The notes beneath the pieces were generated by a model. That model was not told the DNA's origin. It saw nothing but the letters and a program-made list of their open reading frames with translations, and did not search any database. From NCBI GenBank assembly GCA_013399855.1, contig VXAY01002056.1:2511518-2575517 (forward strand): a stretch of 64,000 nt of DNA, written 5' to 3'. Below, piece by piece: positions 21,701-24,700 of this stretch (its first letter is position 1; each line of letters begins with the position of its first letter). Source of the DNA: Oxyruncus cristatus (lineage: Eukaryota; Chordata; Aves; Passeriformes; Cotingidae). The position numbers were made by a program, and so were the translations under genes.

Positions 21701-24700
21701 TTTTCTTAGGGTGGAACAAATGTGCATTCAGATAAAGGAAGTTGGTGATCGTGTCAACTACATAAAACGGTCATTGCAGTCCTTAGATTCACAGATTGGC
21801 CACCTCCAAGATCTGTCTGCTCTGACTGTGGATACCCTGAAAACACTGACTGCACAGAAAGCTTCAGAAGCGAGCAAGGTTCATAATGAAATCACACGGG
21901 AACTGAGCATTTCAAAACATTTGGCACAAAACCTCATTGAGGATGGCTCCCTAAGATCATCTGTGTGGAAAAAGCACAGCATCGGAAATGTCTTTGGTTC
22001 TTTCCCGCAAGGAGGCCTTGAAAGTAACAATGCTTTACTCTGTAACATTTCTATCCGTGATGAGAAAGAAGGCCAACATAAGACAGTTGGTCAGGAGTTG
22101 GCTCCAGTTCCCCGAAGAGAAGAAAAAAACTTCCAAGAGGCAGGTTCCTCAGGCAGTGCCTTATTTTCAAATGCTGTTTCCCCTCCAGAACTTCGCCAAC
22201 GAATACAGGCTGCAGAGATCTCCAAGTCCACTAGTAAAAGTAAAAAATTAGGCAACTCATCCAACAGCATGCCACACGTAACATCCCCAACAGCAAAGTT
22301 CTTTGTTAGCACCCCATCTCGACCCAGTTGCAAAAGTCAGCTGGATTCTTCAGCAAAGCGTGAAGAGACTGTGTTCTTTAAGGCTACAGAAGGAGATAAT
22401 AATGTAGAATTTGGTGCGTTTGTGGGTAAGTATAACAAAGTAGATTCTGAGTGTCCTGAAGTCATTATTAGCTGCTCTTATCCTTTTGCTTCTGGCTCTG
22501 CTTGCCTTGCTTTCACCCAACCTTGTGTTGAAAATGGAGGATACGTTAATTGTGGTTTTATTCATGATGAGAGTGACGCTAATGATAACTACAGCTGCAG
22601 AGTTGACAAATGTGATCAGCAGTCCTCTGTCAAGTTATCGAAGAACAAGCCCCAAACGAAGTTCTCTTTGTCAACTGGCGACTTGACGTCAACAGTCAAC
22701 TGTGGCGGCTCACATGGAAAATTGAATATTAAAGATGAACTTTCCAAAAGTCAGCATGTCCATGCAATGGAACTACAAACCCGAGATTTATGTTCTAACA
22801 TCCTTATGGGACTACTTCATAAACTGTGGACCAAATCTAAGCCACAAGGTTTGACTTATCAAGAATTGTATAGTGTTTTGGGTGTATTCCGGTTGCAGGT
22901 GACTTCATTCTACCATTTTGCTCTGCTTTTTTTGCTTTTAACATCTCTAATTTCCCTACGTCGCTTGAATGTTGTTTTTAACTTAAACTATAATTTCTCC
23001 ATAATTCTGTCACATAGACAATATTTTTCTGCAAAACATGACCCAGTTGTTGACTTCAGCGGTTCTGTGCAATTAGCAGCTGTACAACTTGGTGCAGGCA
23101 TCATAGACAAATATTTGTGACTCATTATAAAGCTCCTACCTTCTCATTGCATAAACCAAAAATATTGTCTATTTCTTGACGTAATTACAGAACACTTCTT
23201 AAGGCTGATGGAGTCCTGGACAAATATCTCTGTGGTATCTGTGTCAAGCTGAGGGTTCCTCCTATACTATATTTCTAAACACTGTTATAACTGGGATCTT
23301 CCACTGTTGCCTTGGCTAACGTATATTTGGGTAGTCATTTTGGAAACTTCCGAAATCCTCTAATTCAATACAACATTTTGCCTCCCCTCAAGTTGTACTT
23401 AGCAGTAAAAAAGGTGGATGATTTTGGTTAGTTACCTGCATATTTGAATGGTAAAACAGTGGCAGATTCATTGCAAAACACAGGTGTGGGTTTACTAACT
23501 GATTCCTGTAAAGTAGATAATGCTTTAAGTACGCTTAGTGTATGGCAGAAGATGTAATCTGGAATTGTCAGGTTGCCTGCAGAGGTGTTGTCTTGCCCTA
23601 ATTGTTTAGGGGTGTCTCAGTGTTTTCCAAAGGTTTACTGAGGATGTAGAAATTTAAATCTCTAGACAAGAATTTATTCTACTGCTGTGAAACTTGGATT
23701 TCTAAGAAGCTCCCTACACGCACTAGTGTTTTTAGATTGGTGTATGCACAGGAAGAGTATCTACAGTTTACACACTCATTAGCTTTTTGTTTACAAGTGC
23801 CTCAGGTTGAAAAAAAAGGTGGTGTTTTTTCTCTTTTTTTTTAAATTCAGAAAGCAAGACAAAACAGTAATATTGGACAGTGATTGTATAACTCCTATCT
23901 AATCTTTAAATGTACTTCACCACTAATAACTTTGAATACTAACTGTACTTATTTACTGGAGCCAGATTTTTTGTGTATGGTCCTCTGACATCTCTTGCAT
24001 TTACAACACACTCTTCACTCCTCCTGCCCACAATCTGTAAAACTTGTGGTACCGTGCAGGTTTCAATTCAACCGTGAAGCCAAGTAGATTTCCAGTTGTT
24101 ATAAAACCACATGCTTGGGAAAATTCTGAAAAGTGTTTCTTGCATCTGTGAGGACGAAGGGTATATTGTAAAAGCTACCTCCGGAAAACTCTCTACTTTT
24201 CCTTCATTTGTCATGCGTACATAAAAGTGTTGTTACTCAGACCTTGTTCCTTCCCCGTGAGGAGAACACGCTGGAGTAAAATTTTGAAGTATTAGCTTTA
24301 CCTTTTGAGTTGTGGTAATCCACACCTCAGTGTGGGAAAGGCAGTAGTTTCGTATCAACACATCGTCACACTGATTTTTACTTTAGTGTGTTTGTAATGT
24401 CTTTTCTAGAGCAAACAGGCACAGAGACCTTAGGTGGTTCATAACCCTTTGCTGTGGTGATGCAAACTATTGGCATGGTCAGAACGCTGGAGGTTGCTTT
24501 GATTTTGAATGCTCTTTTTGAATTCACTGTGTCAAAGGTCACAGAGACAGCATGGACTTGCAGCGGTTTAAAGAGGCAGCAAGCAAAATTAGAGACAGAA
24601 GTGCCGACATCGAGGTAAGCATGAAAGACTTTGCCAAAAGTGGTAATGGGGATTGTTTTCTTTTAAACTGTAATCTTTTGAAAAAGTCTTAAAAGCAAAC

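Follow-up and report, generated by a model that had tools for sequence, protein, structure and literature searches.

The TRPM7 gene and the end of exon 26

The window analysed here, a stretch of 64,000 nucleotides from the bird Oxyruncus cristatus (contig VXAY01002056.1, positions 2,511,518 to 2,575,517), carries on its forward strand the TRPM7 gene, with 39 exons between 667 and 33369. Our subject is the end of its exon 26, where two alternative donors are predicted to define a short and a long form of the protein. Joined, the 39 exons encode a short form of 1888 residues in one frame with a single terminal stop; ending exon 26 at the donor at 22849 gives a long form of 2029 residues, again with one terminal stop. 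TRPM channel, coiled coil and alpha-kinase lie in one reading frame, as expected of the TRPM7 channel-kinase, and the product matches TRPM7 proteins over nearly its full length. TRPM7 chains from the PDB match the first 96 residues of exon 26. The elements of the region are as follows, with a slash marking splice junctions.

21710 to 22425, + strand: TRPM7 exon 26 in its short form, ending in phase 1 (...EFGAFV G); placed by tblastn with human TRPM7 and by exon assembly
22426 to 22431, + strand: proximal donor GTAAGT (TGG/GTAAGT), phase 1; 5.7 bits, low among the gene's own donors
22426 to 22848, + strand: predicted coding extension of exon 26, 423 nt, 141 residues (KYNKVD...KSKPQG); protein comparison and ungapped alignment with goose isoform X1
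22849 to 22854, + strand: distal donor GTTTGA (CAAG/GTTTGA), phase 1, weak; used by the annotated long isoforms (junction QG/HRDSM in 17 of 17 long-form clusters)
22851 to 22931, + strand: conserved intron flank, including the CAG/GTGACT site and frame-broken in crocodile; comparison with birds, turtles, tuatara and crocodile
22899 to 22904, + strand: candidate donor CAG/GTGACT, phase 0, from the preliminary description; 4.9 bits, used by 0 of 125 proteins
23118 to 23120, + strand: stop codon closing the open frame of exon 26
24538 to 24614, + strand: TRPM7 exon 27, partner of both donors; tblastn, exon assembly and isoform alignment
25414 to 25473, + strand: TRPM7 exon 28, 60 nt, phase 0; exon assembly, and present in other sauropsid proteins
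26870 to 26951, + strand: TRPM7 exon after exon 28; exon assembly

Exon 28 also occurs as a 60-nt exon in the TRPM7 proteins of goose, falcon, turtle, lizard and snake, and it is not known to have a counterpart in human TRPM7. An assembly gap of 71 N (26779 to 26849) lies within poly-T directly before the acceptor of the 26870 exon.

A preliminary description of this DNA, made from its letters alone, had noted that the exon 26 frame stays open for 231 codons past the donor at 22426. This is correct (22426 to 23117, with the stop at 23118 to 23120), as are the positions it gave for TGG/GTAAGT (22426), CAG/GTGACT (22899) and the phase-0 exon start (25414); its chance of 1.5 in 100,000 under equal base use was reproduced by arithmetic. 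Given this gene's own intron composition, the probability falls to 7.9e-8 for 231 open codons and is 4.6e-5 for 141, and the longest open run past TRPM7's other 37 donors is 71 codons; the run is therefore beyond chance.

Exon 27 follows both donors in annotated proteins

A census of the junctions at this place covered 125 TRPM7 proteins, of which 32 show the short junction FVG/HRDS, 17 the long junction QG/HRDSM, 40 a continuation of the frame into the intron, and 36 other joins. The long junction is that of all 17 long-form clusters found (birds, turtles and squamates), which places the donor at 22849, in phase 1 and spliced to exon 27 at 24538. Every one of these clusters lists ncbi or nr as a source, and 15 carry the kinase signature GDEIIPTN. 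The long form of the window aligns with TRPM7 isoform X1 of the swan goose over its full length with zero gaps (97.1% identical), and with Falco naumanni TRPM7 over 1971 residues, also with zero gaps (97.4% identical). Taken together, the junction and the ungapped alignments indicate that the long form adds 141 residues and keeps exon 27, through an alternative 5' splice site. In annotated proteins, then, exon 27 follows either of two GT donors, at 22426 and 22849, both in phase 1.

The goose X1 protein (P0007, 2030 aa), from a cluster of 23, and the X2 cluster of Falco naumanni (P0026), which has 113 members and a representative with the segment, share the 141-residue segment and the exon 27 junction with the window and differ from it in species only; both are database predictions, known here from cluster representatives. 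Short TRPM7 proteins of 1888-1889 aa (e.g. P0101) have all other exons the same, use the proximal donor and are without the 141 residues. Human TRPM7, with 1865 aa, is of this short type. In the wall lizard Podarcis, isoforms P0121 and P0122 differ at this junction by a variant of four residues and have GAFVGVAKGHRDSM there.

The preliminary description had placed a long isoform in the Ser/Thr-rich linker, and a conserved coding extension is indeed predicted there; it ends, however, at 22848 and not at 22898, and has 141 rather than about 158 residues. The original proposal was that the long exon runs to a phase-0 donor at 22899 and is spliced from there to exon 28 (25414), with exon 27 left out. 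This site does lie in frame, the 22898-25414 join reads openly through to 2020 aa, its donor score equals that of the 22849 donor, and the sequence is conserved, with 12 of the 14 models compared reading LQVT there. Yet neither this join nor any other use of the site occurs among the 125 proteins, the long forms keep exon 27, and in crocodile the frame is broken ahead of the site. We consider such a junction very unlikely, and 22899 was rejected as the main donor of the long form.

A retained intron 26 would instead yield a channel without its kinase, ended by a stop inside the intron (23118 in this bird). Birds, turtles, crocodile and tuatara, 17 genera in all, supply the 40 retention-type models, 39 of which are without the kinase signature, and the block 22851-22931 is conserved in birds; in crocodile and tuatara, only models of this type were seen. 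However, UniRef is the sole source of all 40, and it is also a source of many joins that resemble model errors: 30 of the 36 other joins are UniRef-only records, which vary between species and look like such errors. Moreover, the retention tails diverge and vary in their end point (16 to 75 residues across 17 models, 89 here), with parrots and an owl frame-shifted. Retention is thus an improbable account of the open frame; the stop that the preliminary description gave for it stands, while its kinase-less product is not established.

The extension is conserved across sauropsids

The segment, queried together with its flanks, matched 427 proteins at E up to 1. The best 120 of these, the matches listed, come from birds, turtles, crocodile, tuatara, lizards, an amphisbaenian and snakes. 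From them 30 proteins, one per species and type, were picked by hand and aligned, leaving out models that were incomplete or had unusual joins, for example P0063, P0064 and P0088. In all 30 the counterpart of the extension has 133-142 residues and no stop, at 27-96% identity to the window. Identity is 96% for Pitangus and 94% for goose, 74% for Mauremys, 63% for crocodile, 53% for tuatara and 43% for Zootoca. Four snakes have only 27-30%, yet their segments keep an open frame of 133 residues and lead into exon 27 in the same way. In neutral simulations started from the window DNA (1500 runs, without indels), the share of runs with an open frame was 1.1% when identity had fallen to 54%, 0.4% for 37% and 0.13% for 24%. 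Retention of the frame across distant species at such divergence therefore speaks for protein coding, and the comparison shows 22426-22848 as a conserved, predicted coding segment of sauropsids. Frame breaks between 22426 and 22898, which the preliminary description had named as evidence against its own proposal, are absent from 22426-22848 in the 30 aligned proteins and appear just beyond it, in crocodile inside 22851-22931 and in parrots and an owl farther downstream.

The codon usage of the extension is intermediate and does not single out its frame: its in-frame score is -0.011 bits per codon, higher than 98.2% of 227 intron windows, yet 22 of 23 coding exons lie above it and two of the five alternative frames outscore the true one. 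On the available sequences, the coding question is settled by the comparative evidence and not by codon usage.

The same data bear on a non-coding explanation, in which the open frame arose by chance within DNA conserved for the control of splicing. The weak codon scores agree with it, as do the invariant first two residues of the extension (KY), which in the window spell the proximal donor GTAAGTAT, and the conservation of the flank past 22848 without retention of the frame. Against these stand the chance of 7.9e-8 at local composition and the open frame of the four snakes with its exit to exon 27, and we hold this explanation to be highly improbable.

Two narrower searches were also made. 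One, queried with the turtle segment by itself, yielded 71 proteins out of 110 candidates at E up to 10 and reached only birds, turtles, crocodile and tuatara; since it missed the squamates, it cannot show absence elsewhere. A 44-residue lizard stretch, meant to reach amphibians or mammals, matched 11 proteins among 13 candidates, all of them from squamates. No mammal, amphibian or fish was among the listed matches of the three protein searches, which are too narrow to show absence; a lack of the segment in mammals would rest on the human sequence and on searches too narrow for proof. Nor was any TRPM6 protein among the matches listed (120 of 427 in the main search), in searches that need shared 5-residue words, and the earlier suggestion that TRPM6 may keep an ancestral long exon here gained no support. 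Pfam holds no family matching the extension at E up to 1.

Donor strength and the conserved intron flank

Donors were scored with a model built from the gene's own donors; its reference set excluded two, that of exon 26 and the GC donor at the end of exon 3. The latter, at 2687-2692, apparently reads AAG/GCACGT, either a GC donor replacing GT or a sequence error, with the frame resuming at 4320. The proximal donor at 22426 obtained 5.7 bits (3 of the 36 other donors are equal or lower) and the distal donor at 22849 obtained 4.9 bits (1 of 36), the same as the 22899 candidate. The invariance of KY over the proximal donor suggests that both donors have apparently been kept.

Of the 27 codons at 22851-22931, 13 birds have 22-25 identical residues, two turtles 20 and tuatara 17; crocodile has 6 of 16, followed by a stop. 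Past 22848 the frame is not maintained: among the 17 models compared, that of crocodile breaks and stops after 16 residues, and those of three parrots and an owl shift. Judged from protein letters only, the motif CAGGTGA would also be consistent with the crocodile model in another frame. This flank may possibly be conserved as intron sequence with a decoy or helper donor.

Weighing of the evidence and proposed function

Our preferred explanation, with a probability of about 0.88, is that exon 26 of TRPM7 has an alternative 5' splice site, a distal donor that would add 141 in-frame residues conserved in sauropsids. Several observations weigh against it or against its parts. The protein records behind the long form are mostly predictions, the models of two cormorants (P0063, P0064) and of Rhineura (P0088) omit part of the segment, and the crocodile models are without the four residues SKPQ at its end (the crocodile row is excluded from the count of invariant columns). 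Because proteins were retrieved through the intact frame, broken species are under-counted. Codon usage, as described, does not distinguish the reading frame. Two GT sites that are not used, one after 22335 and one after 22749, score 5.6, above the distal donor, so that the donor score alone does not pick 22849. As regards function, the extension is not richer in Ser/Thr than the remainder of the linker (17-24%), by the charge-hydropathy rule the segment falls just on the folded side (0.442 versus 0.413), and the proposed role is drawn by analogy from mammalian TRPM7, which is not known to have this segment.

Mechanistically, use of the proximal donor at 22426 would give the usual channel-kinase, while use of the distal donor at 22849, joined to exon 27 at 24538, would add the 141 residues in frame and leave channel, coiled coil and kinase unchanged. 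Regulated splice choice needs weak competing donors. Both donors appear weak and may compete, so that splicing factors could set the ratio of short to long form. The insertion point follows G1442 in human numbering. According to PMC2267223, residues 1380-1548 of human TRPM7 form a Ser/Thr-rich domain required for efficient substrate phosphorylation, 37 of the 46 autophosphorylation sites lie in this region adjoining the kinase, and its deletion blocks efficient substrate phosphorylation with catalytic activity retained. Among its 141 residues the extension has 18 Ser and 7 Thr, a share of 17.7%, versus 12.4% in the whole short protein. Placed inside this self-phosphorylated region, it would provide a longer tether with 25 extra Ser/Thr, and could thereby adjust substrate recruitment but not catalysis. 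The tether step is weak, since charge-hydropathy does not favour disorder and no Pfam family is found.

PMC5826258 describes a mouse Trpm7 splice form without exon 20, which is alternative splicing of the same gene but skips an exon in the membrane part and does not lengthen the linker. In TRPM6, the Ser/Thr-rich region has the analogous place before the alpha-kinase and is heavily autophosphorylated like that of TRPM7, with a lack of sequence conservation between the two domains (PMC2267223).

Other features of the window

A stretch at 28090-28750 resembles a fragment of a CR1 retroelement; for the 132-aa open frame on its reverse strand, Pfam gives no match (E up to 1). Two further regions, 38665-39066 (+) and 46509-46868 (-), match the Pfam ubiquitin hydrolase family UCH, and are probably USP50 and USP8, neighbours of TRPM7. 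Among the database records, P0008 (Pitangus sulphuratus, 2371 aa) fuses another protein, presumably SPPL2A, to TRPM7, with exon 1 in another frame and exons 2-3 skipped; this is likely a model error.

Significance

The long form is already present among the predicted proteins of NCBI/nr and, on these records, is a genuine and largely ordinary alternative isoform in an interesting place. In the literature on TRPM7 splicing, isoforms and autophosphorylation, no report of it was found in titles or abstract openings among the matches listed, and most subscription journals lie outside the coverage. A bolder version, which we regard as doubtful, would see here a sauropsid splice switch maintained for about 280 million years, adding some 140 fast-evolving residues to the autophosphorylation domain as a module that mammals lack, with the conserved intron flank and its decoy donor setting the ratio of the forms.

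UniRef-only records of kinase-less TRPM7 should be treated with care, and human and mouse TRPM7 may not represent the protein of birds and reptiles. TRPM7 couples the entry of divalent cations to a kinase, and this kinase recruits substrates by phosphorylating its own linker; a conserved form with a larger linker, if true, would offer a natural variant for how linker length and the number of phosphosites set the output of the kinase.
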